64,000 nucleotides of DNA, from assembly GCF_022227765.1 (NCBI RefSeq), contig NZ_JAJMLZ010000001.1:372001-436000 (forward strand), read 5' to 3'. Under the pieces are notes generated by a model. The model saw nothing but the letters and a program-made list of their open reading frames with translations, ran no database searches and had not been told where the DNA came from. Below are positions 1-19,364 of this stretch, in pieces. The number at the start of each line of letters is the position of its first letter. Position 1 is the first letter of the stretch. The stretch comes from Ectothiorhodospira shaposhnikovii. GTDB lineage: Bacteria > Pseudomonadota > Gammaproteobacteria > Ectothiorhodospirales > Ectothiorhodospiraceae. A program made the position numbers and the translations under genes.

Positions 1-1449
1 ATTGTCAGTTACAGCGATCTGGCTGCCAGCCTGGACCCCAGGATGCTGGCCGAGACCCAGAGTCTGGGCGAGCTGTTACAGGGTGGTCAGCCGCTGGCGG
101 TGGATGATCAACTGCCCGTCAAGGATGTCATGCGCCTGATGGACCTGGGAAAATGTACCGCCACCGTTGCCATTCGTCACGACAGGCCCGTGGGTATCCT
201 GACCCAGCGGGACGTGATTCGCCTGCTGCAATCCGGTGCTGATCTGAACGGGGCTTTGGCGGATTACATGACTCACCCCGTGCTGACTCTGGACGAGCAC
301 GCCACCATCGCCGAGGCACTGACGTTTTGCCGTGAAAGACGGATCAAGCGGGTGGTTGTCGTGGATGCCAAGGGGCGCCTCAGCGGCCTTGTCAGCCAGA
401 AAGATCTGGTCAGCCTCTATTACAACCGCTGGTTCACTCTGCTCAGGAATCATCAGCAAGAACTGGACTTGCTCAACCGCAAGCTTGCGGAAATCAACCA
501 GGCGCTCACGACACTGACCGATGAGGTGCCTGCGGCTTTGGTTGTTGTCGACGGGAAGGGGCTGGTCATCCGGGTCAATCAGGCGGTATCGGCGTTATTG
601 GGCTATGGGGTCGAGGAAATGCTGGGTCGGCCCGTGATGGATTTCTTTCAATGCAGCCACCCTGACGACGCCGAGCCCGGTTTGTCAGGGTGGCTGCATT
701 GCGATCAGACCGATACTTTCATTCCCCGGGGCCAGTGCCGGGTATTGCAGTGCCTGGAGCAGGGGCAGGCCTATCAGGGCGATGAAGTGATGATGCGCAA
801 GGATGGTCTGGGGGTGGCGGTGGAACTCAAGGCAAAGCCCCTGGGCGGATCCGGTCACTTCCTGTTCCTGCTGCAGGACGTCAGTGCCGCGGTCGTTCGT
901 TCCCGGCAGCTGGAGCGGGAGCTGAGGCTGTTTACGGGCGGGCCGGTCATGGTCTGTGTGTGGCATCCCAGACCAGGTTGGCCAATGCGTTATGTGTCCA
1001 GCAATGTTCTGAGTGTGCTTGGCTTTTCGGTCGAGTCCATGTTGGCGCCGAATTTTCTGTTCGCGGATCTGGTCCATCCCGAGGATCTGCCCCGACTGGA
1101 ACGGGACACGGCCATGGAGCTGGCCGGTCGTGCGCCCGCCATCGAGCAGCATTATCGATTGCGTAACAAGGCCGGTCGGTATCAGTGGTTTTATGAATAC
1201 TCGGTGCCGGAGTACGATGATGAGGGCAATCCGCTCATGCTGCGGGGGTACCTGCTGGATCAGACCCAGGAGATCAGGACCCGAAAGGCGCTGGAGGAAG
1301 AGGAGCGCAAGTTTCGCATGCTGTTCGATCTGTATCCGGACGGCGTCTTGCTGCTCGACCCGAAGACCACCTTGCCCCTGCAGTTCAATGCCGCCGCTCA
1401 CCAGACGTTGGGTTATGACGCCGATGCGTTCTCCCGATTGCGTATCTAG
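1..1449 (+). CDS. CBS-PAS sensory part of a hybrid histidine kinase, 5' end outside the window, ended by an in-frame amber codon
   Basis: Sensory N-terminal portion of a multi-PAS hybrid kinase. The frame is already open at base 1 and its first residues (IVSYSDL) look like the end of an earlier CBS domain, so the true start lies upstream; the first ATG inside the window is at 43. From 43 the order is a CBS pair (residues about 10-130), a helical linker (about 130-155), one PAS domain (155-290), a second PAS/PAC domain (295-420), then the first third of a third PAS. The frame stops at TAG 1447-1449 in the middle of that PAS, and the same frame reopens at once and continues to 4215. CBS pairs usually bind adenosine ligands and PAS domains bind small ligands or cofactors; the ligand here is unknown. 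As it stands the product has no kinase domain, so this is most likely one half of a disrupted gene. Confidence 0.8.
   Translation: MVSYSDLAASLDPRMLAETQSLGELLQGGQPLAVDDQLPVKDVMRLMDLGKCTATVAIRHDRPVGILTQRDVIRLLQSGADLNGALADYMTHPVLTLDEHATIAEALTFCRERRIKRVVVVDAKGRLSGLVSQKDLVSLYYNRWFTLLRNHQQELDLLNRKLAEINQALTTLTDEVPAALVVVDGKGLVIRVNQAVSALLGYGVEEMLGRPVMDFFQCSHPDDAEPGLSGWLHCDQTDTFIPRGQCRVLQCLEQGQAYQGDEVMMRKDGLGVAVELKAKPLGGSGHFLFLLQDVSAAVVRSRQLERELRLFTGGPVMVCVWHPRPGWPMRYVSSNVLSVLGFSVESMLAPNFLFADLVHPEDLPRLERDTAMELAGRAPAIEQHYRLRNKAGRYQWFYEYSVPEYDDEGNPLMLRGYLLDQTQEIRTRKALEEEERKFRMLFDLYPDGVLLLDPKTTLPLQFNAAAHQTLGYDADAFSRLRI
1447..1449 (+). other. In-frame amber stop splitting the hybrid kinase
   Basis: TAG in frame 1 separates two reading frames that are in the same phase and together form one continuous PAS domain: the residues before it (LGYDADAFSRLRI) and after it (DYEALETPDEVEAHV) are contiguous PAS sequence. 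A single C to T change from CAG (Gln) would explain it. The local sequence CTAGG would derive from CCAGG. Confidence 0.85.
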
Positions 1450-1479
1450 GATTACGAGGCCCTGGAAACTCCGGATGAG

Positions 1480-4215
1480 GTGGAGGCGCATGTGTCGAAG
1501 ATCATGGCGCGGGGACGAGATGATTTCGAAACCCGGATGCGCCGCGAGGACGGCAGTCTGATCCATGCAAATATTTCCGTGGTTGCCATGGAATTGAGTT
1601 CCGGACCCTGTCTGTTGGTGGTGTTCAGGGACGTCACGGCGCAGAAAAACAATGAAATGCACCTGCTTGAGAGCAGGGAACGGCTCAAGCTCGCCACCGA
1701 GGCGGCCAATATCGGTATCTGGGACTACGACATCGCCAATGACGTGCTGCTCTGGGACGAAGGGATGTTCAGGGTTTATGGCGTGGATCAGCAGATCTTC
1801 GGCGGTCGCTTCAAGGACTGGCAGGCACGGGTCCTGCCCGAATCGCTCCCGACCGTGCTGGGGGCATTCGAGCGCCTGCTGAAGGAGGATGTCCGTTTCG
1901 ACGTGGAGTTCCAGATACAGCGATACCGGGATGGGGCACACAGGACATTGCGTGGTCTGGCCCAGGTCAGGCGCAACGAGGCTGGAGAGGCGGTACGTGT
2001 GGTCGGCGTCAACGAGGACATCACGGGTCGGGTCATGGCCGCCCGGGAACTGGCGGCACAGGAAGCCAAGTTTCGAGGTTTGTTCGAGCTGTCACCGGTC
2101 GGGATCGCCATGAATGATTTCAGGACCGGGCAGTTTCTCGAATTCAATCGGGCGATCAACGAACCTGCCGGCTATACCCCCGGAGAGTTCAGACGACTCA
2201 GCTACTGGGAGCTGACGCCCGCGTCTTACCTGCCCGAGGAAGAAAAGGCTCTGGCCTCCATGGAAGCGACGGGCTTCTACGGTCCCTTCGAAAAGGAATA
2301 CATTCGCAAGGACGGCAGTCGCTACCCGGTACTGCTCCATGGATTCAAGACTACGGATCAGGATGGGCGGGAAGTGATCTGGTCCATCATTCAGGATATT
2401 TCCCACATCAGGCAGGCCCAGGAGGCGGCCGAGCGCGCCAATCGGGCCAAGGGTGAGTTTCTGGCCAACATCAGTCATGAGATCCGCACGCCAATGAACG
2501 CGGTCATCGGCATGACGGAGTTATTGCTCAACACCCCCATGGATGAGCGGCAGCAGGATTATCTTGCGAAGATACGTGATGCTTCACGCATGCTGCTGGG
2601 CATCATCAACGACATCCTGGACTATTCGAAAATCGAGGCCGGCAGGCTGGAACTGGACTGTCATCCTTTCCTTCTCGATGAACTGCTGGATCGCATGCGA
2701 GCCCTGTTTGCCCTCACGGCGGAAACCAAGGGTATCGAGCTGATACTGCAACAGGAAACCGATGGCGGGCTGATGGTGGAGGGAGACTTCCTGCGCCTGT
2801 GCCAGGTTCTGAGCAATCTGTTGAGCAATGCCGTCAAGTTCACCGAACAGGGGCGGGTGACCCTGGCAATTCATCAGCTTGCCTTGGGCGACGAGGGTAC
2901 CTCGGTGCGATTGCGTTTCCAGGTTCGGGATACCGGCATCGGGATCAGCGAGCCGCAACAGACCAAGCTGTTTCTTCCCTTTTCCCAGGCGGATTCTTCC
3001 ACCACCCGCAAATACGGCGGCACCGGTCTGGGTCTGGTGATCAGTCGTCGCCTGGTGGCGCAGATGGGCGGGGAACTGGCGCTTTACTCCGCGCCCGGCC
3101 AGGGCAGTCTGTTCCAGTTCGAACTTCAGCTTCCTCTATCCGGCCACGTCTCCAAGGCAGCAACCACCAACGGTCTGATTCACGGGAAAGGCAGGGTCCC
3201 CACCTTTCCCGGCCAGACCATCTTGCTGGTGGAGGATAATGCCATCAATCAGGAGGTGGCCATGCAGATACTCAAAAATACCGGTGTCGAAGTCATGGTG
3301 GCCTGTAACGGTCTGGAGGCCGTCAATCTGCTGGAGCAGCAGCCTGTCGATCTTGTGCTCATGGATCTGCAGATGCCGGTGATGGACGGTATTGAAGCGA
3401 CACGGCGTATTCGTCAGCGTTTTCCGGAGTTGCCGGTCGTGGCGTTGTCCGCGGCGGCGATGGATGATGACCGGCTACGCGCCCGGGCGGCGGGCGTGAA
3501 CGGCCATCTGGCCAAGCCGATCGATACCCAGGCCCTGTTTGCCATGTTGAGGCGCTGGCTGCATGAAGATACCATGCGGGCCGGTGACACGGCTGCCTCG
3601 TCTCCTGATTGCGCGCTGCCCTCCGACCTGCCGGGGTTCGATCTGGATCGTGGTCTGCGGACCTTCGAGGGCAATGCCTCCTTGTATCTGAACATGCTGC
3701 GTCGTTTCAATCTGGAGCTGCAGACCGGTTTCTCCGATATCGATATGGTTTTGAAGCCACCCCATGCCGAAATGTTGCGGCGCAGCCTTCACACCCTCAA
3801 GGGGCTGGCGGGAACTCTGGGCGCAAATCGTCTGCAGAGACGCGCAAGGGCCATGGAGCAGGCCCTGGAGAAAGATGGCGATGTTCCCCGGCGACTGCGT
3901 GCCTCGTTCATCGAAGCCCTGAACGAAGTGCGTAAAAGTCTGACCACCTTGCCGGTGGCGCCTGTGGTCGAACGGGACACGGTTGATGACCCCGAGTCCG
4001 TGAGGGTGTTGATGCAGAGGGTGCATGCCTCCCTGTTGGCCGGCGAGTGGGTGGCCGCCGATACCATACATCGGGTGACCGACTGCCTGCGGCGACGTGT
4101 CGGCGAGGCCAGGGTGAAGGAGTTGGAGCAGTTACTGGCTGATCTTGAGCACGAGAGGGCCGCTGATCTGTTACGGAAACTGGCATGCGACGCCGGTCTG
4201 GAGATTGAAGTCTGA
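1480..4215 (+). CDS. Hybrid sensor histidine kinase (PAS-HisKA-HATPase-REC-Hpt), C-terminal half of the split gene
   Basis: Kinase portion of the disrupted gene, 911 codons if started at GTG 1480; no convincing ribosome-binding site precedes it, so it is probably not translated independently unless by readthrough or reinitiation. Order: rest of the split PAS (1-60), PAS with PAC (60-195), PAS (195-320), HisKA with the phospho-accepting His near residue 333 (ISHEIRTPMN), HATPase with N box NLLSNAVKF and G boxes DTGIGI and GTGLGL (435-560), a receiver domain with Asp near residue 629 (LMDLQMPVMDG), and a C-terminal Hpt domain with His near residue 771 (LHTLKGLAGTLG). This is a BarA/TorS-like unorthodox phosphorelay architecture, no transmembrane segment seen, so the sensor is cytoplasmic. 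The stop overlaps the ATG of the REC-GGDEF gene by one base (TGATG), suggesting that this is its output partner. Confidence 0.85.
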   Translation: MEAHVSKIMARGRDDFETRMRREDGSLIHANISVVAMELSSGPCLLVVFRDVTAQKNNEMHLLESRERLKLATEAANIGIWDYDIANDVLLWDEGMFRVYGVDQQIFGGRFKDWQARVLPESLPTVLGAFERLLKEDVRFDVEFQIQRYRDGAHRTLRGLAQVRRNEAGEAVRVVGVNEDITGRVMAARELAAQEAKFRGLFELSPVGIAMNDFRTGQFLEFNRAINEPAGYTPGEFRRLSYWELTPASYLPEEEKALASMEATGFYGPFEKEYIRKDGSRYPVLLHGFKTTDQDGREVIWSIIQDISHIRQAQEAAERANRAKGEFLANISHEIRTPMNAVIGMTELLLNTPMDERQQDYLAKIRDASRMLLGIINDILDYSKIEAGRLELDCHPFLLDELLDRMRALFALTAETKGIELILQQETDGGLMVEGDFLRLCQVLSNLLSNAVKFTEQGRVTLAIHQLALGDEGTSVRLRFQVRDTGIGISEPQQTKLFLPFSQADSSTTRKYGGTGLGLVISRRLVAQMGGELALYSAPGQGSLFQFELQLPLSGHVSKAATTNGLIHGKGRVPTFPGQTILLVEDNAINQEVAMQILKNTGVEVMVACNGLEAVNLLEQQPVDLVLMDLQMPVMDGIEATRRIRQRFPELPVVALSAAAMDDDRLRARAAGVNGHLAKPIDTQALFAMLRRWLHEDTMRAGDTAASSPDCALPSDLPGFDLDRGLRTFEGNASLYLNMLRRFNLELQTGFSDIDMVLKPPHAEMLRRSLHTLKGLAGTLGANRLQRRARAMEQALEKDGDVPRRLRASFIEALNEVRKSLTTLPVAPVVERDTVDDPESVRVLMQRVHASLLAGEWVAADTIHRVTDCLRRRVGEARVKELEQLLADLEHERAADLLRKLACDAGLEIEV

Positions 4216-5128: not shown

Positions 5129-5156
5129 GCCTGAATGAACGATCCGGCTTTCAGGC
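5129..5156. terminator. Weak hairpin between convergent genes
   Basis: Inverted repeat GCCTGAA (5129-5135) and TTCAGGC (5150-5156) spans the 24-base gap between the REC-GGDEF gene and the convergent ParA gene, reaching into the ParA stop codon. The stem is only seven pairs and there is no clear T run, so termination is a guess from position. Confidence 0.3.
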
Positions 5157-5933
5157 TCGCATGCGTTGTTCGATGACTCCGAAGACTGTCCTGTAATCCT
5201 CATTGCCGCGGCTGCGGGGCGCATACAGCCGGATGGGTCGCCCGGCGGCGAAGGATTCCGCCAGCTTGATGTCGTTGCGAATCCCGCCCAGTACCCGGTC
5301 CTCGCCAAACTGCCGGGCCACCTGATCGCGGACGGTCTGGTGCTGCCGGACCCGCATGTCCAGCATCACCGGCAACACCCCCATCAGACGCAGGTTGGCA
5401 TTGCTGCGCATGGCCACCTTGAAAAAGACCTTCGACAGTTGCTTGACCCCTTCACCGGCCAGGGGGTGCGGCATGAACGGGATGACCGCCCAGTGGGCGG
5501 CCGCCAGGGCATTGAGCAGCAGATGATCCAGGGAGGGCGGCGAGTCGATGACAACCTGATCATAGCGGGATGTCAGTGCCGGATCCGCCAGTGCCCGTGC
5601 CAGCACTTGCTCGTCATCGGGGGCGCTGCCGTGCTGAAAATCCGGATTGGCGGGGGCCAGGTCCAGGCCCAGGCAGCAGGTGGGATAGCGTGCGTCCAGC
5701 AGACCGATGTCGTGGTCCTGAAAGAGATGGTGCACCGTGGGTCGAGTGGGGGAAGGCGTGACCCCAAGGCCCAGGGCGCAGTGCCCCTGGGTGTCCAGGT
5801 CGATCAGAAGCGTGCGACGGCCCGTCGCGGCGAATTCCGCCGCCAGGTTGACCGCCGTGGTGGTCTTGCCGGTACCCCCCTTGCGGTTGCTGACCACCAG
5901 CACGGTGGGCCCCGTTCCCCCCGCCGCGCTCAT
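5151..5933 (-). CDS. ParA/MinD-family ATPase closing the chemosensory operon
   Basis: 260-residue deviant Walker ATPase. Residues 11-30 carry the deviant Walker A loop KGGTGKTT with the signature first Lys; Walker A' is LIDLDTQGH and Walker B is VVIDSPPS. Such proteins dimerise on ATP, bind DNA or a polar scaffold, and segregate plasmids or position protein arrays. No parB follows; its partners are a chemosensory array and a partner switch. The ATG overlaps the stop of the preceding receiver gene (ATGA), so it belongs to that transcript. By analogy with the ParA-like proteins that place chemoreceptor arrays (ParC of Vibrio, PpfA of Rhodobacter), a role in positioning the array encoded upstream is a reasonable inference; plasmid-type partitioning is less likely because of the missing ParB and the chromosomal context. 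Confidence 0.85.
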   Translation of the reverse strand: MSAAGGTGPTVLVVSNRKGGTGKTTTAVNLAAEFAATGRRTLLIDLDTQGHCALGLGVTPSPTRPTVHHLFQDHDIGLLDARYPTCCLGLDLAPANPDFQHGSAPDDEQVLARALADPALTSRYDQVVIDSPPSLDHLLLNALAAAHWAVIPFMPHPLAGEGVKQLSKVFFKVAMRSNANLRLMGVLPVMLDMRVRQHQTVRDQVARQFGEDRVLGGIRNDIKLAESFAAGRPIRLYAPRSRGNEDYRTVFGVIEQRMRA

Positions 5934-6322
5934 GGATGCAGGGTTTCCTCAAGAACCCGGCGCAGTGACTCACGGGTGAAGGGCTTGGGCAGGGTGGCCT
6001 TCACGCCCATCAGTTCGGCGGACTCCAGGTTGAATTCCAGGCTGATGGAACGGCGCCCGCCGGACATGGCAATGATGGGAATGGGGCTGTTGCGCTGATT
6101 GAGGGCATTGATCAGTTCGATGCCATCGCCGTCCGGCATCAGGATGTCGGTCATGATCAGGTCCGGCGAATGGGACTCCAGGAGTGTGAGGGCCTGGGTG
6201 CCGCTGGCGGCGCCGAGTACGCGGAACCCTTCCTTGCTCAGCATTTCCTGCAACATGGTCCGGAAAGTGTTGTCGTCATCAACTACCAGGATTGTGGTCA
6301 TGGTCTTTTCCGTGTCTGTCAT
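5930..6322 (-). CDS. Single-domain response regulator (REC)
   Basis: A stand-alone receiver of about 130 residues: acidic pair VVDDD near residue 15, phospho-accepting Asp in LIMTDILMPDGDG, Thr/Ser switch region IIAMSGG and Lys in TLPKPF. There is no output domain. The stop overlaps ParA and its ATG (6322) overlaps the stop of the histidine kinase gene (ATGA at both ends), so it is sandwiched between them and is the likely target of that kinase. A second start at 6301 is possible (weak GGAAAAG upstream). It could act like CheY on a protein partner, perhaps on ParA or on the partner-switch proteins. Confidence 0.88.
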   Translation of the reverse strand: MTDTEKTMTTILVVDDDNTFRTMLQEMLSKEGFRVLGAASGTQALTLLESHSPDLIMTDILMPDGDGIELINALNQRNSPIPIIAMSGGRRSISLEFNLESAELMGVKATLPKPFTRESLRRVLEETLHP

Positions 6323-7434
6323 GGGGACAGGTCTTTGGGGGGAGCCGTGTGACCCGGACCCGGGGTATGTCCGCCAAGGGCGGGCAGGTCGATGCTGAAC
6401 CGGGTGCCCGCACCGGAGGTGCTCTCCAGGGTGATCGTACCGCCCAGGCTGGTCACCAGGCCATGGATCACCGACAGTCCCAGCCCGGTTCCCCTGCCGG
6501 GGGGCTTGGTGGTGAAGAAGGGATCGAAGATACGTGCCTGGATCTCCGGTGTCATCCCCTCGCCGTTGTCGGTGACGCTCAGGCGGACGATGGGGCCGGG
6601 CTGATCCGATGTCCGCGGCAGGGTATCAATGCCGACCCGTATCATCCCGGCCCGCCCTTGGATGGCATCGGCGGCGTTGATGCAAAGATTCATGACGATC
6701 TGCTGGATCTGGCTGTGCTCTGCCATCACCCAGGCCTGCCCGGGACCCTCGTCCATGACCAGTCGAATGTGCACGGGCAGGGTAGCCCTTAGTAGCTCGA
6801 TGGTTTCGCCGACGACGGGAACCACATTGACGGGCTCAAGGATCTCGGGCATTGAGCGGGCGAAATCCAGCAACCGGGTGGTCAGGTCACGGGCCTTGAA
6901 GCTGGATTTGAGGATATGGCCCAGATACCGGGCGCCGCTGGAGTCGGGCTGTACCTCGTCCGTGAGCAGTTCACTGAAACCGATGATGCTGCCCAATATG
7001 TTGTTGAATTCGTGGGCCACGCCCGAAGCCAGGGTGCCGATGGCCTCCAGACGGCGGAGCTGATCGAGACGGGCGCTCAGGATGGCCTGGGTGCGATGTT
7101 CCAGTTGCTCGCGAAAGGCCAGGCTGTAAGCCATGTAGGCCTCCATGAGCGGGGCCGTGACCTTGTCCGCCACCGTTGCCAGCGTCAGTTCCGGATGTGC
7201 CTGGGCCAGCGCCACCAGGGCGGCATGATGGATCTCGCTGACTTCCTCCAGCGGAAGTTCGCGACTCACCATTTCCCGGCCAAGGGCGGCGGCATCGGTC
7301 AGGGCCTGCTCCGTGGTCAGCGGGTCGTCGGTGAGGACGGCCTGCAGCAGCAGCCGGGTGTAGCGCGCCGTGATGTCGTCATCGCTATCCAAGTCGGCGG
7401 ATTCATGCATGTCGGTAGAGGAGGATGGCGGCAT
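6319..7434 (-). CDS. Histidine kinase with an RsbU-N-like sensory domain
   Basis: About 371 residues from the ATG at 7434; 7410 is an alternative that overlaps the phosphatase stop by eight bases. Residues about 15-110 (ITARYTRLLLQA, then VSEIHHAALVAL and MAYSLAFREQLE) resemble the N-terminal domain of the phosphatase RsbU, which in Bacillus docks the kinase RsbT. This is followed by a HisKA helix with ASGVAHEFNNILGSIIGFSE, the NtrB-like H box, and an HATPase with N box MNLCINAADAI and G boxes DNGEGM and GTGLGLS. No membrane segment is seen. The known RsbU domain normally controls a PP2C phosphatase; here it is joined to a histidine kinase, so RsbT-like proteins encoded just upstream may regulate a phosphorelay. 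The RsbU-N call is by eye and is the uncertain part. Confidence 0.82.
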   Translation of the reverse strand: MPPSSSTDMHESADLDSDDDITARYTRLLLQAVLTDDPLTTEQALTDAAALGREMVSRELPLEEVSEIHHAALVALAQAHPELTLATVADKVTAPLMEAYMAYSLAFREQLEHRTQAILSARLDQLRRLEAIGTLASGVAHEFNNILGSIIGFSELLTDEVQPDSSGARYLGHILKSSFKARDLTTRLLDFARSMPEILEPVNVVPVVGETIELLRATLPVHIRLVMDEGPGQAWVMAEHSQIQQIVMNLCINAADAIQGRAGMIRVGIDTLPRTSDQPGPIVRLSVTDNGEGMTPEIQARIFDPFFTTKPPGRGTGLGLSVIHGLVTSLGGTITLESTSGAGTRFSIDLPALGGHTPGPGHTAPPKDLSP

Positions 7435-7987
7435 CGTCGTTGTCCCGTGCCCAGCGTTGCAACAGTGTCCGGGCGGTCTGGTCCGTCGGCGAGGCATCCT
7501 TCAGGGCATCGGAAATGGGGATATCCTCGCTGATACCGTCGGAAAACATGACCAGCCAGTCACCCGGCCGCAGCAGATGACGCTCTGCGTAGAGACGATG
7601 GAAACCGGCACCGACAATGCCTCGTGCGCCCCCCAGTCTTGTCAGTCGATCCTGTTGCAGCAGCAGGGCGCGGATGTTGCCGACGGCGACGTGGGTCAGT
7701 GTCCCCTGATCATCGATCAGCGCCATGGCCAAGGCAACGCCGCGGGTGCCTCGCAACAGGGTGTCGCACCGGCCGAGGAGTCGGGTGGGCGGCAACGATC
7801 CCAACGCCATCAGATGCTGCATGGTGCTGAGGGCGGCATGGTGAGCCTCCGGGCCGTGTCCCAATCCATCGGCAAGCGCCATGTACAGTGTCTCGCCCTG
7901 CCGCCAGCAGCCGACCTGGTCCCCGCAGAGTGTTTCACCCGGCATCGGCCGGATGGCTCGACCCAGATTGTCGCTGCATGATTTCAT
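7403..7987 (-). CDS. RsbX-like PP2C/SpoIIE-type serine phosphatase
   Basis: A stand-alone phosphatase domain of about 194 residues. Metal-binding motifs of the PP2C/SpoIIE family are present: GDQVGCW near the start, ADGLGHGPEA about residue 45, and FSDGISED near residue 155. In length and lack of extra domains it matches RsbX, which in Bacillus resets the stressosome by dephosphorylating RsbR and RsbS. The ATG at 7987 forms an ATGA overlap with the upstream RsbT-like gene; a longer frame from 8017 has no better signal. Its position directly after two RsbT-like kinases and RsbR/RsbS-like scaffolds supports the RsbX role. Confidence 0.87.
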   Translation of the reverse strand: MKSCSDNLGRAIRPMPGETLCGDQVGCWRQGETLYMALADGLGHGPEAHHAALSTMQHLMALGSLPPTRLLGRCDTLLRGTRGVALAMALIDDQGTLTHVAVGNIRALLLQQDRLTRLGGARGIVGAGFHRLYAERHLLRPGDWLVMFSDGISEDIPISDALKDASPTDQTARTLLQRWARDNDDAAILLYRHA

Positions 7988-8448
7988 GATCTGTCCACGG
8001 GCCGGTGACGGCACCATTTGATGGCCCTGATGCGGGTCCCCTGTCCGAAGGTGGAACTGATGCTGAATTCGTCCATCAAGCGGCTGGCTCCGGGCAGACC
8101 GCAGCCCAGCCGCCTTGCCGTGCTGTACCCTTCAGTCATGGCCAGATCAAGATCCGGAATGCCCGGTCCCTGGTCTTCCGCCCTCATTTCAAGCCCGATG
8201 ATGCTGCCGTCGTTGTCGGTCAGTGGCTGCAGGTGGAGGGTGCCGCCGCCGGCATGTACCGCCATGTTGGCGGTCAGCTCCGAGGCGGCCGTGGCCACGT
8301 GATAGGCTTGCGCCCGGCCGAATCCCAGGTGTTCGGCCATCTGCCGGGCCGCGCGCGCGGCTTGCATGACATCCTGTTCACCGTGGATCGGTATGATCTG
8401 TGCGGGGGCAGTCGTGCAGTGGGTGTGGGGCGGGGGCTGTCGTGACAT
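7984..8448 (-). CDS. RsbT-like serine/threonine kinase, second copy
   Basis: A 154-residue GHKL-fold kinase of the RsbT/RsbW/SpoIIAB group. N box ASELTANMAVHAG, G1 box EDQGPGIPD, and glycine loop LGCGLPGASRLMDEF are visible, as is the FGQGT turn close to the end. The GST-LG-GLPG arrangement is typical of RsbT, which phosphorylates RsbR and RsbS and then binds RsbU. It has an N-terminal extension of about 20 residues compared with its neighbour. It lies between the first RsbT-like gene (one base apart) and the phosphatase (ATGA overlap), so all are made together. Having two RsbT paralogues in one operon suggests two different targets or two outputs. Confidence 0.87.
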   Translation of the reverse strand: MSRQPPPHTHCTTAPAQIIPIHGEQDVMQAARAARQMAEHLGFGRAQAYHVATAASELTANMAVHAGGGTLHLQPLTDNDGSIIGLEMRAEDQGPGIPDLDLAMTEGYSTARRLGCGLPGASRLMDEFSISSTFGQGTRIRAIKWCRHRPVDRS

Positions 8449-8449
8449 G

Positions 8450-8860
8450 TCAGACGGGCTTGCGAATGGCGATGACGATGCGGGTCAGCCCAGGGTTCGA
8501 GCTGATATGAAAACTGTCCACCAGTCTGCGGACCCCGGGCAATCCGGCGCCCAGGCCGCCGCTGGTGCTGAAGCCGTCCTGCAGGGCCAGGGTGAGATCG
8601 GGAATGCCGGGGCCGTGGTCTTCGATGGTGATCCGGATCATGCGTTCGCCCGGGTCCGACAGGTCTTCGATGAGGCAGGAGCCTGCCCCGGCATACTGGA
8701 TCACGTTGCGGGTCAGTTCGGAGACCGCCGTGGCCAGCCGGGTCTGGTGGGCCTTGCCGAAGCCGAGATGGGCACTGAGCTCGCGGGCGGCCTGGCGGGC
8801 GGTGACGATGTCGCTGCTGTTGCCGATGGCAAGCCGTACGGACGGTCGTCGTTCATTCAT
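8450..8860 (-). CDS. RsbT-like serine/threonine kinase, first copy
   Basis: About 136 residues from ATG 8860, whose start overlaps the stop of the RsbS-like gene (ATGAATGA). N box VSELTRNVIQYAG, G1 box EDHGPGIPD and glycine loop LGAGLPGVRRLVDSF fit RsbT closely; it is the more canonical of the two copies in length. The expected reaction is ATP-dependent phosphorylation of a Ser/Thr in the STAS proteins encoded upstream, releasing itself for a downstream partner. A longer start (GTG at 8869) is possible. Confidence 0.88.
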   Translation of the reverse strand: MNERRPSVRLAIGNSSDIVTARQAARELSAHLGFGKAHQTRLATAVSELTRNVIQYAGAGSCLIEDLSDPGERMIRITIEDHGPGIPDLTLALQDGFSTSGGLGAGLPGVRRLVDSFHISSNPGLTRIVIAIRKPV

Positions 8861-9248
8861 CCCCGTCACCGGTGAAACGGATGTCGCCGCGGTGGGCGAT
8901 GCGCTCCCTGAGCATCTCCAGACCCTGATCCAGGTTGAAGGCGCAGTCGGCTCCGATCAGATCCCTGCCCATCTCGATCAGGGTCATGGCGACATAGGGC
9001 TGGATACCGCAGATCACCACTTCCGCGCCCAGCAGGCGCACCATGCTGGCGGTATCGTTGATGACCCGTGCCATGTAGGAGTCCACCACGTCCAGCGCGG
9101 TGATGTCCACGGCCACGCCCAGGGCCTCGATCTCCGCGACCTTGTTGACCAGATCGGACTGGAACTGCATGGCCTCGTTGTCGGTGAGGTCTTCCTGAAT
9201 GGAGACCAGCAGGATTCGCCCCAGACGCAGGATGGGAATTTTTTTCAT
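8853..9248 (-). CDS. RsbS-like STAS antagonist protein
   Basis: A 131-residue single STAS domain. The conserved phospho-acceptor Ser of RsbS is present in the loop DITALDVVDSYMARVI (about residues 48-63), followed by helix and strand EVVICGIQPYVAMTL. In Bacillus RsbS forms the core of the stressosome with RsbR and sequesters RsbT. The start ATG overlaps the stop of the RsbR-like gene (ATGA), with GGAGG about 13 bases upstream. The tail is slightly longer than in typical RsbS. Confidence 0.88.
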   Translation of the reverse strand: MKKIPILRLGRILLVSIQEDLTDNEAMQFQSDLVNKVAEIEALGVAVDITALDVVDSYMARVINDTASMVRLLGAEVVICGIQPYVAMTLIEMGRDLIGADCAFNLDQGLEMLRERIAHRGDIRFTGDGDE

Positions 9249-10117
9249 GGGTGTGCCGGATCCTCCATGGCGGTGATGCGCTTGCCGGTGATCATCAGGG
9301 CTTCGGCAATACCGGCGCGCAGGCTGGCGCGGCAGATGACATCGCCGAAGCGGATGCCCAGCTTGGTCAGGGTCTGGGCGCCTTCCGGACTGATGCCGGT
9401 GAGCACCACCCGGCTACCCAGCAGACGGGCGGCGTCGATGGTCTTCATGATGTGCTGGGCCACGCTGGTATCAATGATGGGGACGCCGGTCAGGTCGATG
9501 ACCGTCACCCGCGCTTCATGACGGGCAATGGCCTCCAGCAGATGATCCGCGATCTGACGGGCCCGTCCGGTATCGATGATGCCCACCAGAGGCAGCAGCA
9601 GGATCTGATGCCACAGGCGCAGCACGGGAGTGGACAGTTCCATCAGTGACAGATTCTGTTCCGAAATATGGCGATCCCGCAGGCTGAGTATGCTGTTGAA
9701 GGCGAACAGTGCAATCCGGTCAAAATAGCGATCCAGCCGAAGCATGGGTTCCGCCATCGAGAGTGTTTCGCTCTTCCGGTCCCAGGCCGTGACATGACGC
9801 AGCAGCAGTTGCCGAAGGCTGAAGAGCAGGCGCAAGGGATCTGTGGCCTGTTCCGGGTTGCGGGCCTGTTCGGCGGCCAGATGTCGCAGATGTACGCACA
9901 GGGGGGCCTGCTCGTCCAGGTCGGGGAGCTGATCCGGCGGGGCCGTCGTCAGCGCCGACAGGATCTGGTCAAACAGCGTCTGCATGATGTGTCGGGTCTG
10001 TGCCGGTGATGCCCAGCCCGGTTGACCGCTGTTATCGGCGGGCAACCACTTGGCGAACCATTCGGCGAGTATCTCATCCCGATGGGTTTGCAGGTGTTGT
10101 GACAGGGAAACGGTCAT
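9245..10117 (-). CDS. RsbR-like stressosome protein (sensor domain plus STAS)
   Basis: About 290 residues from the ATG at 10117 (alternatives 10123 and 10156; the last overlaps the MCP stop by one base but lacks a ribosome-binding site). The N-terminal 170 residues are a helical RsbRD-N-like sensor beginning LSQHLQTHRDEILAEW. The C-terminal STAS domain keeps both threonine positions that RsbT phosphorylates in Bacillus RsbRA: IDLTGVPIIDT and LTGISPE. It should build the stressosome scaffold with RsbS. The unknown is the input; lying directly downstream of a chemoreceptor gene suggests that the array and the stressosome share signals. Confidence 0.86.
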   Translation of the reverse strand: MTVSLSQHLQTHRDEILAEWFAKWLPADNSGQPGWASPAQTRHIMQTLFDQILSALTTAPPDQLPDLDEQAPLCVHLRHLAAEQARNPEQATDPLRLLFSLRQLLLRHVTAWDRKSETLSMAEPMLRLDRYFDRIALFAFNSILSLRDRHISEQNLSLMELSTPVLRLWHQILLLPLVGIIDTGRARQIADHLLEAIARHEARVTVIDLTGVPIIDTSVAQHIMKTIDAARLLGSRVVLTGISPEGAQTLTKLGIRFGDVICRASLRAGIAEALMITGKRITAMEDPAHP

Positions 10118-10155
10118 GGGCATTCTCGTCGGGTCACGGATGCCGATGCGCGGCA

Positions 10156-11424
10156 TCAGAAAAGTTCGATACGCGGTCCCGCATCGGGGGTGGTGGTCTG
10201 GTGGTCGGGGTGGCTGTGACGGGCCTCGTCCTCCAGATAGCGGGCCAGCAGCTGCTGCAACTCCTCCGGGAGGGGCGCAAAACCCGTGGGAGACTGATCC
10301 ACGCCGGCATAGAGCCGGCAACGCTCCGCCAGGGTGTCGGTCATGCGGGTCAACCGCTGTCCCTCCACATCCTGATACTGCATCAGCCCCAGCATGTCGG
10401 CAATCTGTTCCGCCAGTTCGGTATTGTGCCGGGTGACCACCGAGAACAGGGTCTTGTAGAACTGGCGCATGTCCTCGTAACTGTGCTGCAACGCCTGGAA
10501 GGCATCAACCACCTGGGTCGCCTTTTCCAGGTGGTGGTGAGAGTCGCCGAGGTTGCTGTTGGCCAGGCTGTTTTCCACCGCCATCAGGGCCTGATTGAGG
10601 CCGGATTCGATGGTGTCGGCCGCCGTCGAGGCACGATTGGCCAGGGCGCGTACCTCGGTGGCCACGACGGCAAATCCGCGCCCCGAGTCGCCGGCCCGGG
10701 CGGCTTCAATGGCGGCGTTGAGGGCCAGCAGGTTGGTCTGCTGGCTGATCTCCTTGATGGAGGCGGCGAGCCCTTCCAATTGCTTGACCTCCTGGAGGAT
10801 GTGGTGAATCACCTCGGCATCCTGACGGATCTTGTCCGGCAGTTCGCGCACAAAGCTGGCAATCCTGTTCATGTCCTCCACACCCTGCTGGATGTCCACC
10901 GCCATGGTGGCCGCGTTGGTGCTGGAGTGGTGCAGATAGTCCAGCAGCTTTCCGGCCGCCTCGTTGAGCCGGCCGGTGCGTTCGATGATGCCCAGGGTGT
11001 AGGTCTCGCTGTCCTGCAGGTTCTGCCGCAGCGCGTCCTGAAAGGCCTGATCCATATCGGCCGTGGCATGCATGGAATCGCGGCTGGCTGCCAGTTGTGT
11101 CTCGGTCTTGACCAGTTCCTCGTCCAGCGCCTCCAGGGTGCGGCACAGGGAACCGGCGTTGCGGTAGCTGGTGCGAAAGAACACCAGTCCGGCGAGGAAG
11201 TTGGTCCCCAGCAGGGCAATGGCCACCATGATCGCCAGTACCGCGGCTTCACTGATGCCCAGCCATTGCGACAGCCGCGCCGGCCAGGCATGGGTGTGAT
11301 ACACCAGCAGGGACAGCAGCAGGGTGCCCAGCACCGTGGAGACGGCCATGTTGCGACGCAGGGTGCGCGCCTGTTGCAGGGAGGCTTCGGCCAGTTTCCG
11401 GCGCTGCTCGGTCAGGACCGTCAT
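10156..11424 (-). CDS. Methyl-accepting chemotaxis protein with short membrane anchor
   Basis: 422 residues. Two hydrophobic segments near residues 25-45 and 60-85, separated by only a short hydrophilic loop, so there is no real periplasmic ligand domain; the receptor is anchored and probably senses in the membrane or cytoplasm. The signalling hairpin tip is near residues 215-245 ([20 protein letters not shown]) and is followed by [15 protein letters not shown]. The C-terminal half after the tip (about 270-422) is atypical and somewhat short for a standard receptor. GAGGA lies just before the ATG. The gene sits between the cheY and rsbR-like genes of the same operon. Confidence 0.9.
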
Positions 11425-11433
11425 GGGGTGTCC

Positions 11434-11808
11434 TCAGGCGCCGGGCAGGACTTGCTTGATGACCTTGATCAGGTCGGCGCCACTGACGGGTTTGAGCAAC
11501 CAGCCGGTGGCACCCAGTTTCTTGGCCTCGTCCCGCTTGGCCTGCTGGCTTTCCGTGGTCAGGGCCAGGATGGGGATGAAGCGCATGCCCGGCAGGGCGC
11601 GGGCATGACGGATGAAGTCGATCCCGCCCATGCGGGGCATGTTGATGTCGGTGATGATCAGGTCCGGCTTGACGCCGGACTTGAGCTTGTCCAGGGCCTG
11701 CTGACCGTCGTGGGCCGTCTCCACGGTGAAACCGGCGATCTGCAGGCTGGTTTTCAGGCTCATGACCATGGTGACTGAGTCATCCACCACAAGAATGGTC
11801 TTGGGCAT
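11434..11808 (-). CDS. CheY-like response regulator
   Basis: A 124-residue receiver with VVDDS at residue 6-10, phospho-accepting Asp in LIITDINMPRMGG, switch Thr in ILALTTES and Lys in WLLKPVSG. The start at 11808 is preferred because AGAGGA lies nine bases upstream, although an ATG at 11817 overlaps the preceding STAS gene stop. It should be phosphorylated by the CheA of the same operon. It could be a motor-type or pilus-type output, or a phosphate sink; two CheY-like genes flank cheA. Confidence 0.9.
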   Translation of the reverse strand: MPKTILVVDDSVTMVMSLKTSLQIAGFTVETAHDGQQALDKLKSGVKPDLIITDINMPRMGGIDFIRHARALPGMRFIPILALTTESQQAKRDEAKKLGATGWLLKPVSGADLIKVIKQVLPGA

Positions 11809-11813
11809 GGAAT

Positions 11814-12056
11814 TCATTCCTCTTGATTGAGTGCGTGTCTGAGCCAGTCTGCCGGCCGGGCGTCTTCGGGCCAGGCGGTGATCCGGGGGCGGGTGGCCAT
11901 CAGGACCTGCAAGTTGGCGGCATGCAGGTGGGTACAGCCGGCCAGATCCAGGTTGCCCTCGGGATGCTTGAGCAGCCAGTCGAGCAGGATTTCGGCATCT
12001 TCGACGCCAAGCATGTCGGTGACCCGCAAGGTGTTGTCATCGATTTCAATGCCCAT
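11814..12056 (-). CDS. Small STAS-like protein
   Basis: An 80-residue protein, not a standard che gene. The stretch LDLAGCTHLHAANLQVLMA (about residues 37-55) resembles the strand-loop-helix of STAS domains, and a preceding region IDDNTLRVTDMLGV fits the first strands. At the usual phospho-Ser position there is His (THLHAAN), so phosphorylation by an RsbT-like kinase is doubtful. The ATG overlaps the cheA stop by one base (TGATG), with GGGAG eight bases before it. Small STAS-like proteins occur in some chemosensory operons; here it may link CheA to the partner-switch module. Function unknown. Confidence 0.7.
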   Translation of the reverse strand: MGIEIDDNTLRVTDMLGVEDAEILLDWLLKHPEGNLDLAGCTHLHAANLQVLMATRPRITAWPEDARPADWLRHALNQEE

Positions 12057-14713
12057 CACAGCAACTCCCGGGGATTGAGCACCAGCAGAACCGATCCGTC
12101 CCCCAGCAGGGCGGAGCCGGCATAACCCCGCAGGTTGCCGAGGAATCCGGCCAGGGGTTTGAGAATGATGTCCACGGTCTCGCGACAGTCATCCACGATG
12201 ATGCCGAGAAAATCGTTTTCGATGCGCACCACCACCACCGCCATTTCACCATCATCGTTGGGAACCTGGGCTTCGTCCAGGGCCAGCAGGTCATTGAGCG
12301 CCACCAGCGGCACCACGCGGCCGCGCAGAACCGTGGTCATCTGGTGCTTGATGCATTGGATGTCGGTCCGTGCCACCCGTACGGTTTCCGCCACCGCGTC
12401 CATGGAGACGCCGAAACGCTGGCCGGCGGAGACGATGATCATCACGTTGGTCACGGCCATGGACAAGGGCAGGGAGAGCCGCAGGCGGGTTCCTTCGCCC
12501 GGTCGGCTTTTCAGATCGATGCTGCCGTTGACCCGCGCCACCGCCGTGCGCACCACGTCCATGCCCACGCCCCGTCCGGACAGGTCGGACACCTGGGCGG
12601 CGGTGGAAAAACCGGGGGCGAAGACCAGATTCAGTGCCTCCTGATCCGTGAGCCGCTCCAGGGCCTGTTCGTCGATGATACCCTTTTCATAGGCCTTGCG
12701 GCGGATCGCCGCGGGGTCGATGCCGCGACCGTCATCGGCGATCTCGATCACCACCCGGTCTGATTCGGAACGCGCGCTGATGGTGAGCCGTCCCGCCATC
12801 GGCTTGCCGGCGGCGCGACGTTCCTCCGGGGTCTCCAGGCCATGGTCGAGGCTGTTGCGAATGATGTGGACCAGGGGATCGGCCAGGGATTCGATGACGT
12901 TCTTGTCCGCCTCGGTGGATTCTCCTTCCAGTACCAGTCGCACTTCCTTGCCCAGTTTATGGGCGGTATCCCTGACCAGCCGCGGGAAACGCTGGAACAC
13001 GAAGGACACCGGCAGCAGTCGAACCTGCATGATGGCGTCCTGCATTTCATCGGCGATGCGATTGAGTGTGCCGTACTGTCCCTTGATTTCCCGGGATAGC
13101 TCCCGCACGCCGAATACCGTCTCGGCGCGGGCGGCCAGATAGGGCAGGGCATTCTTGGCCACGATCATCTCGCCGATGAGGTTCATCAGTCGGTCGATCT
13201 TGGCCTGATCCACCTTGATGGCGCTGGGGCTGGCATAGTTGTCTTCCAGGCGGCGGCCGAACTTGCGGGCCTCTCCGTTGCCGGTTGTTGCGCCCGGCGT
13301 GGCGGGGGTGGGGGCGGGCTCGGTGGCGACGGTGCTGGGCGCCGCCGGTGCGGGATCGACGCCGACCGGTGCCGGCGTGACATGGTCCGCCAGCCATCGG
13401 GCCAGGGGCGAGGATGCCTTCTGCTCCAGCGCCGCCCGCAGGGCCTCGTCCATGCCTTCAAGGCGGGCCTGCTGTCCCGCTTGAGTGAAGGCTGCCCGCA
13501 GGCTGGCGGCGACGGCCCGCAGGCGGCCGGGGAGCCAGGGCGGTGTATCCTCCAGAGCGAGGATTTCGGCCTGGGTCGAGATGATGTCGGCATCGGGGGC
13601 GGCGGTGTCTTCGAGGACGGGTGCCGTGTCGTCACCGATACCTGCTCCACGGCGGATGTCGTCCAGCAGTTTTTGCTGGAGCCGGGTGTCGTCCGGCTGG
13701 GTGCCCAGTACCAGCAGCAGCCAGCGCAGCGCCGAGGCTACTTTGAGTTCGGGTGATGATAGTTCCAGCAGCAGTCGGCTGGCCCGGGCCAGACCGTCAT
13801 GGTTGCCGGATTCCAGGTGTGACTTCGCGGTCTCAAGGTATTCCGCCACGGGCAGGCCGTCGTGCGTTTCCCCGGTAGGAATGGCCAGCATTGCCGGTTG
13901 AAGGGGGATGATCTCCACCTGGTCCGGGATGTAGCGGAAGTGTTCCGTCAGCTCCCGCGGATCCATGGGAATGACGCACTCGAAATGCAGCAGGCAGCGG
14001 TAGGCATCCAGGGCGTCCGGGGCCGGCCAGGGTTCCCGGGCACTGACTCGGCGCCAGAGGGGGTCGGGCAGCTGGGTGATCTGATAGAACGGGTCTTCCC
14101 CCTTGAAAAAACATTCTTCCTCGGGCCGATAACTGAGCCACGAGCAGGACTGCCCCTGGACCATGCGACGATATGCATCCATGCGCGCGGCTTCAGGTAT
14201 CCGCGTCGTCGGGTCTGTCACGTCGTCGGCCGGGTCATCGGGGCGGGCGTGTGTTGCCGGGGTCGAGGCCGTCAATGGTTCGGCGGCGGTTGTCTCGGGT
14301 TCGTCCTGCTCGGCCCGAGCCGTGATGAGTCGACGCAGGGAATCGGTCAGCGCCACGGCGGCCGCGGTGCGTTCGGCATCGGCGGGCAGGTTGCCGTCGC
14401 CGCCGGCGAGGATCTCGTCGAGCAGGGCCGAGACAAAATCCATCGCCTCGAGCAGTGGATCCGCCAGCGACTGGGAATAGCCGATGCGGCCGTCCCTGAC
14501 GGTGTCCATCAGGTCCTCGGCACCGTGGAGTACACGGGTCATCTCGGGAAAGTCGAACAGTCCGCTATTGCCCTTTAGGGTGTGGACCAGTCGGAACAAT
14601 TCATCCATGAGTTCATGATCATCCGGCGTGTTTTCCAGCTGCATGAGCCGTTCGCCGATGGACTGGATGGCGTCCCTTGATTCACTGATGAACTGATCCA
14701 GTAACGGATTCAT
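12056..14713 (-). CDS. cheA: Chemotaxis histidine kinase CheA
   Basis: 885 residues. P1 Hpt domain with the phospho-accepting His44 in LFRLVHTLKGNSGLF; a long middle region (about 170-500) that differs from the enteric P2, containing EECFFKGEDPFYQITQLP and HFRYIPDQVEIIPL, typical of the type IV pilus/alternative-function CheA proteins; P3 dimerisation helices (about 520-580); P4 kinase with N box VHIIRNSLDHGLE and G boxes ADDGRGID and GRGVGMD (590-740); P5 CheW-like coupling domain (745-885). It is coupled to the upstream cheY by an ATGA overlap, with GAGGGG before the ATG. It should phosphorylate the CheY-like proteins and CheB of the operon. The atypical P2 suggests a dedicated regulator set rather than enteric-type flagellar chemotaxis. 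Confidence 0.93.
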   Translation of the reverse strand: MNPLLDQFISESRDAIQSIGERLMQLENTPDDHELMDELFRLVHTLKGNSGLFDFPEMTRVLHGAEDLMDTVRDGRIGYSQSLADPLLEAMDFVSALLDEILAGGDGNLPADAERTAAAVALTDSLRRLITARAEQDEPETTAAEPLTASTPATHARPDDPADDVTDPTTRIPEAARMDAYRRMVQGQSCSWLSYRPEEECFFKGEDPFYQITQLPDPLWRRVSAREPWPAPDALDAYRCLLHFECVIPMDPRELTEHFRYIPDQVEIIPLQPAMLAIPTGETHDGLPVAEYLETAKSHLESGNHDGLARASRLLLELSSPELKVASALRWLLLVLGTQPDDTRLQQKLLDDIRRGAGIGDDTAPVLEDTAAPDADIISTQAEILALEDTPPWLPGRLRAVAASLRAAFTQAGQQARLEGMDEALRAALEQKASSPLARWLADHVTPAPVGVDPAPAAPSTVATEPAPTPATPGATTGNGEARKFGRRLEDNYASPSAIKVDQAKIDRLMNLIGEMIVAKNALPYLAARAETVFGVRELSREIKGQYGTLNRIADEMQDAIMQVRLLPVSFVFQRFPRLVRDTAHKLGKEVRLVLEGESTEADKNVIESLADPLVHIIRNSLDHGLETPEERRAAGKPMAGRLTISARSESDRVVIEIADDGRGIDPAAIRRKAYEKGIIDEQALERLTDQEALNLVFAPGFSTAAQVSDLSGRGVGMDVVRTAVARVNGSIDLKSRPGEGTRLRLSLPLSMAVTNVMIIVSAGQRFGVSMDAVAETVRVARTDIQCIKHQMTTVLRGRVVPLVALNDLLALDEAQVPNDDGEMAVVVVRIENDFLGIIVDDCRETVDIILKPLAGFLGNLRGYAGSALLGDGSVLLVLNPRELL

Positions 14714-15087
14714 GACGGATGCCCCTCTCCAAGCAGGCCCCGTACCTGAGGCAGTAGCTGTTCGGGCCTGATCGGCTTGACGACGTACAGGTTGGCGCCG
14801 GCGACCAGGGCGGCCTCACGGTCCCGGGGCGACGACTCGGTGGAGATCATGATGGCCGGCGCCTGCGGGATGTCCTTCTCGCGCAGTGCCTTGAGAAAGC
14901 CGTAGCCGTCCAGCTTGGGCATGTTGATATCCACCAGGTAGAGGTCGAAGGGGCCTTCCATCTCCAGTTTTTCCAGGGCTTCCAGTCCGTTGATGGCCTC
15001 GATGACGGCAAAGCCGGCCTGTTCGAGGATTTCACGGTGATAGAGCCGGACCGTGGCTGCGTCGTCTATGACGAGAATGCGTTTCAT
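14710..15087 (-). CDS. CheY-like response regulator upstream of cheA
   Basis: A 125-residue receiver: VIDDA at 6-10, phospho-accepting Asp in LYLVDINMPKLDG about residue 53, switch Ser/Thr in IMISTES, Lys in YVVKPIRP. The ATG at 15087 overlaps the cheR stop (ATGA); the longer frame reaching 15516 is cheR read in another phase. It lies directly before cheA and is the most likely CheY partner of that kinase. Confidence 0.92.
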   Translation of the reverse strand: MKRILVIDDAATVRLYHREILEQAGFAVIEAINGLEALEKLEMEGPFDLYLVDINMPKLDGYGFLKALREKDIPQAPAIMISTESSPRDREAALVAGANLYVVKPIRPEQLLPQVRGLLGEGHPS

Positions 15088-15935
15088 CTCGCCTCCAGGG
15101 GTTTCTGATATACGATGGCTTCGGGAAAGCGCCGGATCTGGAACAGCGAGGAGATGCGGCTCATGGACTCGGAATGCCCAAGGCAGATGAAACCACCGGG
15201 GTTGAGGGCATCGAAAAAGGACTCCGCGGTCTTCTTGCGGGACAGGTCGTCGAAATAGATCAGCAGGTTGCGGCAGAAGATGACATCGAACTGCCGGTGA
15301 CCTCGCATGTCGGCGGCATCGTGGACGTTCACACGGGTGAACTCCACCGCTTCCCGCAGGCTTTGGCTGATCTGGTAATGGCTGCCTGCCCGGTGAAAAT
15401 ATTTTTTCAGCAGATTGGTGGGCAGGTGCTGGATTGCCCGGCTGGCATACAGTCCCTTGCGGGCCTGCTCCAGAACCTGGGTATCGATATCGGAGGAAAT
15501 GATCTCCACGTCCCACTGTTCGAGCAGCGGCCAGTGTTCCAGCAGGTAGATGGCGATACCGTAGGGTTCCTCGCCGGAGGAGGAGGGCACCGACCAGATG
15601 CGGATGGGCCGCGAGGATGAGCGTCGGGCCACGAGTTCGGGGAGAATGGAATCCACCAGACAGCGAAACTGGTACTCCTCGCGGAAGAAGTAGGTTTCGT
15701 TCACCGTCATGGCATTGATCAGGGTCTGCAGTTCGGCCCCGGAGGCCTGGAAGCGCAGCATGGTGAAGTAGTTGCGAAAGCTTTCATTGGCGGTGGCGGC
15801 CATGCGCTCAAGCAGGCGTTTGTCCACGAAATAGCGTTTGCTGTCCTCGAACAGCATGCCGGTCTTGCGATAGAAGAATTCCCGGAATTTCTGAAAATCC
15901 TCGTCGCTGATGACGCTGGGTTTCTGCATGGACAT
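15084..15935 (-). CDS. cheR: Chemotaxis protein methyltransferase CheR
   Basis: 283 residues from ATG 15935, which overlaps the stop of the HEAT-repeat gene by one base. It transfers methyl groups from S-adenosylmethionine to receptor glutamates. The helical N-domain runs to about residue 75; the marker VNETYFFRE is near residue 87, the SAM motif IRIWSVPSSSGEEPYGIA near 115, and FDVIFCRNLLIYFDD near 215. The SAM loop has Ser where most CheR proteins have Cys (SVPSSSGEE), an uncommon but conservative change. Needed for adaptation of the two receptors of this operon together with cheB. Confidence 0.94.
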   Translation of the reverse strand: MSMQKPSVISDEDFQKFREFFYRKTGMLFEDSKRYFVDKRLLERMAATANESFRNYFTMLRFQASGAELQTLINAMTVNETYFFREEYQFRCLVDSILPELVARRSSSRPIRIWSVPSSSGEEPYGIAIYLLEHWPLLEQWDVEIISSDIDTQVLEQARKGLYASRAIQHLPTNLLKKYFHRAGSHYQISQSLREAVEFTRVNVHDAADMRGHRQFDVIFCRNLLIYFDDLSRKKTAESFFDALNPGGFICLGHSESMSRISSLFQIRRFPEAIVYQKPLEAR

Positions 15936-16561
15936 CACCCGGCCCCGATGCGCTTGAGGGCCAGATCGGCGGCGAACTGGATATAGGGTTCCTCCGGAAA
16001 ACGCTGTTTGAGTGCCCGCAGGGCATCCCGGGACTGCGGGCTGCCCACCTCGCCCAGCAGATCCACGGCGGTGGCGCAGACGTTGATGTGTTCGTCCTTG
16101 AGAATGACCTCCAGCAGCCATGCCTCCACCTGGGGATGACGCAGGGATTCGAGCACGTTCACGGCGAAGATGCGCACATCCGGATCGGGATCGTGCAGGA
16201 GCTTTCCCATGTGGGGAGCGACCGGCTCGGGCAGTTCCTTGAGCACTTCAATGGCCGCGTTGCGCAGTAGGGTGTGTTCCGAATACAGACAGTCGATCAG
16301 CCCGCAAATGGCCACCTCGTTGGCGATGCAGCCCAGTGAGGTGACGATCACCTGCAGCACGGTGGCATCCTTTTCGTGGCGAAGCCGTGTGACCAGTGCT
16401 TCCGCCGCCGCCGGATGTTCCGCCAGGTCCCGGGCGGCCCAGCGGCGTTTCATGACATCTTCGTCCAGCAGCGTCTGCAGCAGGGTTTCCAGGTTTCTGG
16501 GCTCCTGACGCTCGCCGGGACTATGGCAGGGGGGGGTGGGCTGTCCCTTTTTCAACGCCAT
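15935..16561 (-). CDS. HEAT-repeat protein of the chemosensory operon
   Basis: 208 residues made of tandem helix pairs of the HEAT type (about residues 40-200), for example LRNAAIEVLKEL, VRIFAVNVLESL and VCATAVDLLGEVG. No catalytic motif or signal peptide; it should be a cytoplasmic scaffold or adaptor. HEAT-repeat genes are known next to cheR and cheB in some alternative chemosensory clusters. AAGGAT lies before the ATG. It lies between cheB (28-base gap) and cheR (one-base overlap), so a role in receptor modification or in array assembly is the best inference. Confidence 0.85.
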   Translation of the reverse strand: MALKKGQPTPPCHSPGERQEPRNLETLLQTLLDEDVMKRRWAARDLAEHPAAAEALVTRLRHEKDATVLQVIVTSLGCIANEVAICGLIDCLYSEHTLLRNAAIEVLKELPEPVAPHMGKLLHDPDPDVRIFAVNVLESLRHPQVEAWLLEVILKDEHINVCATAVDLLGEVGSPQSRDALRALKQRFPEEPYIQFAADLALKRIGAG

Positions 16562-16589
16562 GGTGCAATCCTTGGGTTAAAAGGTTGAG

Positions 16590-17678: not shown

Positions 17679-17721
17679 GGTCTTGTCTTAAGTCTCTGTA
17701 TATTTTGAGGAGAGGCGAAAT

Positions 17722-19335: not shown

Positions 19336-19364
19336 GACGATCTCCCGCAATACGGTGGCTGGTG

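Follow-up and report, generated by a model that had tools for sequence, protein, structure and literature searches.

Does a Ser/Thr partner switch of the stressosome type reach a two-component system through a histidine kinase that carries the RsbT-docking domain of the phosphatase RsbU? The question is raised by one gene in the window, the whole 64,000-nucleotide stretch of Ectothiorhodospira shaposhnikovii DNA analysed here. The kinase is encoded on the minus strand in an open reading frame of 371 aa (7434 to 6319). The ATG at 7410, which is kept in relatives and overlaps the rsbX stop codon as ATGCATGA, is probably the start; the congener at locus L105 keeps the Met of this ATG but lacks the one at 7434. 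An alternative in-frame ATG upstream, at 7497, would give a product of 392 aa. The predicted protein comprises the following parts:

6319-7434, minus strand: 371-aa histidine kinase that begins with an RsbU_N domain; probable start 7410 (Pfam domains)
7099-7380, minus strand: RsbU_N-like four-helix domain, residues 19-112 (Pfam, PDB profile match to RsbU, four helices in AF2)
7039-7098, minus strand: helical linker, residues 113-132, with R114 aligned to RsbU R91 (alignments, AF2)
6853-7038, minus strand: HisKA domain, H141 in AHEFNN (Pfam)
6379-6714, minus strand: HATPase_c domain (Pfam)

Pfam recognizes both kinase domains (HisKA, residues 133-194, 40.8 bits; HATPase_c, residues 241-352, 86.2 bits), and the H, N, G1, F and G2 motifs are intact as read from the sequence (AHEFNN with H141, NLCINAADAI, DNGEGM, FDPFFTTK and GTGLGLS). 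With both domains and all five motifs, the protein is a member of the HisKA histidine kinases, and the predicted gene product is a soluble histidine kinase fronted by an RsbT-docking-type domain. Elsewhere in the window, a gene for a CBS-PAS-hybrid histidine kinase-Hpt protein (43-4215) is split by an in-frame TAG at 1447-1449 on the plus strand, inside the PAS region; its two halves otherwise share one frame.

The initial annotation placed an RsbU N-terminal-like domain ahead of HisKA and HATPase, and profile comparisons, orthologue scores and the AF2 helices confirm this. First, in the Pfam scan of the protein, RsbU_N (PF08673) matches residues 41-84 with 23.0-23.2 bits (E about 7.9e-5 to 8.8e-5), just below the curated cut-off of 25.5 bits, whereas the same N-domain reaches 26.3 bits in a six-frame scan of the genome, above the cut-off. 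The genome scan gave one RsbU_N, one RsbRD_N and four SpoIIE-type phosphatases. RsbU_N is matched in all three members of the close kinase family, and two orthologues exceed the cut-off, i.e., L086 (32.3 bits; 42% identity to the window kinase) and L106 (51.9 bits, E 8.7e-14; 38.6% identity across residues 18-355). The low score of the window protein is in keeping with a short insertion that separates helix 1 from helix 2 in the alignment of the close family. Second, the L106 kinase as a single-sequence query finds solved RsbU (2j6z, E 7.8e-6, residues 5-90), a profile built from three close N-domains has RsbU as all of its top four among 177,635 PDB sequences (best E 0.0065), and a profile-profile comparison (hhalign) with B. 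subtilis RsbU and other RsbU_N kinases gives 97.9% (E 6e-13, 90 columns). Third, the AF2 model of the N-domain (pLDDT 85) has four helices (6-22, 26-45, 50-67 and 73-112), the last of which continues into the linker; the full-length model, built on three sequences, is poor (pLDDT 64.5) and supports no statement on linker geometry. A structural comparison with the PDB by Foldseek and VIA-align 2 recovered the RsbU entries 1w53, 2j6z and 2j70 at Z 5.9-6.0 amid many generic helical bundles and is not decisive alone because helical bundles match one another widely. Of the two checks proposed initially, the PF08673 profile holds for the orthologues and the genome scan but falls slightly short for the protein scan, and the structural check holds for helix architecture; the fold matches, among which generic bundles dominate, do not decide it either way. 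The dN/dS values of the N-domain against three relatives are 0.23, 0.15 and 0.34, with constraint about equal to that of the kinase part; the N-domain, like the kinase, is under purifying selection. Because the orthologue scores, the PDB profile, the profile-profile comparison and the four predicted helices agree, we consider the RsbU_N assignment safe, borderline for the window protein itself and clear for its family.

In RsbU, the residues that contact RsbT are E24, Y28, I74, I78 and, in the linker, R91 (PMC12143880); we checked the RsbU sequence and numbering against solved RsbU chains. In the alignment, the counterparts of E24 and R91 in the kinase are E42 and R114, both invariant in five close relatives, and M97 and M101 occupy the positions of I74 and I78 with hydrophobic character kept. 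The position of Y28, which RsbU needs for RsbT binding in B. subtilis, is Thr in the window kinase, is not conserved in relatives and varies in other RsbU_N kinases. E109 and the phospho-acceptor H141 are 32 residues apart in the window kinase, and this distance is the same in its orthologues, which would fit a constant helical register. We considered using the salt bridge between D92 of RsbT and R91 of RsbU to tell which RsbT is the partner but rejected it as not diagnostic because D92 varies in RsbT proteins adjoining strong RsbU_N kinases.

Directly upstream of the kinase gene and co-directional with it lie rsbR-rsbS-rsbT-rsbT2-rsbX, and a lone REC gene followed by a ParA gene lies downstream:

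9245-10168, minus strand: RsbR-like protein, RsbRD_N sensor plus STAS, both Thr sites kept (Pfam, PDB match)
8853-9248, minus strand: RsbS (STAS), phospho-Ser conserved (PDB RsbS, E 2.6e-32)
8450-8869, minus strand: RsbT1, canonical RsbT-like switch kinase (Pfam, alignment)
7984-8448, minus strand: RsbT2, second RsbT-like ATPase, lacking RsbT R19 (Pfam, alignment)
7403-8017, minus strand: RsbX-like PP2C phosphatase (SpoIIE, 43 bits)
5930-6322, minus strand: response regulator consisting of one REC domain, probable partner in phosphotransfer (Pfam; adjacent in relatives)
5151-5933, minus strand: ParA-type ATPase (Pfam; found inside chemosensory clusters lacking a stressosome)

RsbS keeps the phospho-serine position (VDSYMA), and RsbR, aligned to solved RsbR, keeps both threonines (GIIDT, IIDTS); in the PDB search its closest solved relative is the Vibrio RsbR entry 7o0i. 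RsbT1 retains R19, R23, D92 and the ATP-site residues in the alignment. RsbT2 retains the ATP-site residues and has A, C or M at the R19 position, where the copy in genome G411 has R. The numbering of the B. subtilis RsbT sequence used for comparison agrees with the residues named in PMC12143880. Because RsbR, RsbS, RsbT and RsbX stand in one row with conserved phosphosites and ATP-site residues, a complete predicted Ser/Thr partner switch adjoins the kinase.

The B. subtilis stressosome releases RsbT, which then binds the N-domain of RsbU and orders the RsbU linker (PMC12143880). We suggest that the window encodes a soluble histidine kinase gated by a stressosome, in which released RsbT would dock and gate phosphotransfer to REC, and give this reading a probability of about 0.72. 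The docking protein would most likely be RsbT1, else RsbT2. In this model, RsbR and RsbS would form a stressosome holding RsbT1. Upon a signal, RsbT1 would phosphorylate RsbS and RsbR and be released to dock on the dimer formed by the RsbU_N domains of the kinase, where docking may order the helical linker and alter autophosphorylation or phosphatase activity. The phosphate of H141 would pass to the adjacent REC protein, and RsbX would reset the switch by dephosphorylating RsbS and RsbR. The domain, the gene row and the conserved sites are observed, whereas the docking of RsbT, the direction of control, the REC partner and the output are inferred. This reading is favored by the RsbU_N homology, by helix 4 running into the linker, by E42, M97, M101 and R114, by the retained residues of RsbT1 and by the phosphosites of RsbS and RsbR. 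It is also favored by an analogue in Moorella and by five other loci in which the neighbors are the same, T1-T2-X-HK-REC (L002, L003, L089, L104 and L105); more distant loci have the arrangement R-S-T-X-HK. Counting against it are the Thr at the Y28 position, a genome with kinase and REC but no convincing RsbT (G199), one in which the row is split (G411) and the undetected binding of VvRsbT to VvD1 in Vibrio, although that kinase lacks RsbU_N. The initial proposal that a Ser/Thr switch controls a two-component relay is supported at the level of wiring, with RsbU_N, adjacent RsbR, RsbS, RsbT and RsbX with conserved sites, and kinase and REC all in one row.

The split row bears on which RsbT docks. 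In G411, which is of the same family as the window organism, one locus has CheY2-MCPz-RsbR-RsbS-RsbT1, and the other (L106:3625-9430) has RsbT2-RsbX-photoactive yellow protein-ligase-aromatic amino acid lyase-RsbU_N kinase, the ligase being assigned by reading the sequence. Because the kinase there adjoins RsbT2-RsbX, away from RsbR-RsbS-RsbT1, RsbT2 could be its partner; RsbT1 would then serve the stressosome, while RsbT2 and RsbX would form a separate switch docking on RsbU_N. We regard this as unlikely: the ATP-binding residues of RsbT2 are kept and tandem RsbT genes recur, but A, C or M replaces the RsbU-contacting R19 (the G411 copy has R), and L084 and L088 have one RsbT yet still an RsbU_N kinase. 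In this one case, photoactive yellow protein might signal through the G411 kinase; no further case was found above the family cut-off in the phylum sample.

Alternatively, the N-domain could be a mere dimerization or ligand-sensing bundle that has lost RsbT binding, leaving the kinase independent of the stressosome. Y28 is not conserved, and the fold matches include other four-helix bundles, e.g., KaiA and chains of the AppA complex. In addition, G199 (L090:14157-15566) has an intact kinase and REC while RsbR, RsbS, RsbT1 and RsbT2 are absent, and a search of this genome for RsbT-like genes elsewhere gave weak matches inside long proteins only, none convincing. G199 reflects either recent loss of the Rsb genes or RsbT-independent kinase activity. 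However, an rsbX remnant lies between MCPz and the kinase, so that the locus resembles a deletion; moreover, RsbT adjoins the kinase in most relatives and the E24 and R91 counterparts are invariant in the close family, and we consider an independent kinase quite improbable. That a helical N-domain unrelated to RsbU_N gave a chance Pfam match, as the score slightly below the cut-off and a fold search without a clearly best hit might suggest, is very improbable and already largely refuted by the L106 matches to RsbU_N and solved RsbU and by the profile-profile result.

A link between RsbU_N and histidine kinases, initially thought undescribed, has precedents. Heinz et al. (2022) reported signaling proteins with RsbU_N-like N-termini downstream of rsbRSTX in alpha-, beta- and gammaproteobacteria, inferred that RsbT targets them and reported HisKA/REC phosphorelays as outputs downstream of rsbRSTX (PMC9237108). 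Baral et al. (2025) stated the RsbU_N link explicitly for histidine kinases and modelled one, named NreB (PMC12143880). Among 369 genomes of the class sample, eight have RsbU_N, in all eight on histidine kinases (domain make-up read from the sequences). Because of these reports and counts, the RsbU_N kinase of the window is known in kind. Like the proteobacterial kinases described (PMC9237108, PMC12143880), it has RsbU_N before the kinase, lies downstream of rsbR-S-T-X and adjoins a receiver; it differs in that RsbR has an RsbRD_N sensor rather than a globin, two RsbT genes stand in tandem and the row extends into a chemosensory operon and ParA. Compared to NreB, the window kinase is of the HisKA type with AHEFNN. 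It shares with B. subtilis RsbU (1w53, 2j6y, 2j6z, 2j70) the N-terminal four-helix RsbT-docking-type domain and helical linker, but the output of RsbU is a PP2C phosphatase rather than a kinase, helices 1 and 2 of the window protein are separated by a few additional residues, and Thr replaces Y28. Moorella thermoacetica MtG (3zta) likewise has an RsbU_N-type domain moved to another output enzyme, in its case GAF-GGDEF; its 108 aligned residues give Z 7.6, within the range of unrelated bundles. In Moorella, RsbT and the RsbU_N domain control the GGDEF enzyme (Quin 2012, as cited in PMC12143880). The Vibrio vulnificus RsbRSTX-VvD1-VvD2 genes also combine a stressosome operon with two-component genes; however, VvD1 lacks the RsbU_N domain, and VvRsbT-VvD1 binding was not detected (PMC9237108).

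What is unusual is that the stressosome-kinase block lies inside one row with a full chemotaxis-type system. Chemosensory genes, Rsb genes, kinase, REC and ParA form a co-directional minus-strand row of 18 genes (5151-21287), of which the chemosensory part is:

19365-21287, minus strand: soluble methyl-accepting protein, two signaling domains (two MCPsignal stretches)
17722-19332, minus strand: triple-CheW protein (three CheW stretches)
16590-17678, minus strand: CheB
15935-16561, minus strand: HEAT-repeat-like protein (assigned by reading the sequence)
15084-15935, minus strand: CheR
14710-15090, minus strand: CheY1
12056-14713, minus strand: CheA
11814-12059, minus strand: small STAS-like protein, 81 aa, no Pfam match
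11434-11817, minus strand: CheY2
10156-11424, minus strand: MCPz, methyl-accepting protein with a CheZ-like C-terminal stretch

The MCP signaling domain of MCPz is followed by a CheZ-like stretch that is conserved (QYQDV..QR) and by IELF at the C terminus; the Pfam CheZ match is weak (E 0.0016). The 81-aa STAS-like protein follows CheA in every locus seen and is present in 9 of the 369 class genomes.

Within the extent of the fetched DNA, the order of the row is kept in two congeners (L104, L105), Marichromatium gracile (L002), Halochromatium (L003) and G249 (L089), with protein identities mostly of 35-86% in the latter three, which are more distant; ParA was seen in the fetched DNA of L003, L104 and L105 only. 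L161-L163 have the chemosensory part without a stressosome, and there ParA separates the STAS-like gene from CheY2; in G232 (L160:4110-9468) transposase-like genes occupy the place of the Rsb-kinase genes while REC and ParA are kept. The conservation of gene order at such divergence suggests that the stressosome and chemosensory genes are co-regulated. It is a tentative further step that the partner switch and the CheA array would form one integrated pathway, controlling each other or sharing outputs such as CheY2, MCPz or the lone REC. We found no description of an operon linkage between stressosome and chemosensory genes, or of such wiring, in the open-licence literature.

Altogether, the sequence confirms that RsbT-docking domains have been swapped onto HisKA-type kinases. 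Relatives with one RsbT, with two, or with RsbRST lost and the kinase kept are good material for testing, and the chemosensory linkage would make crosstalk between the stressosome and the CheA array testable.
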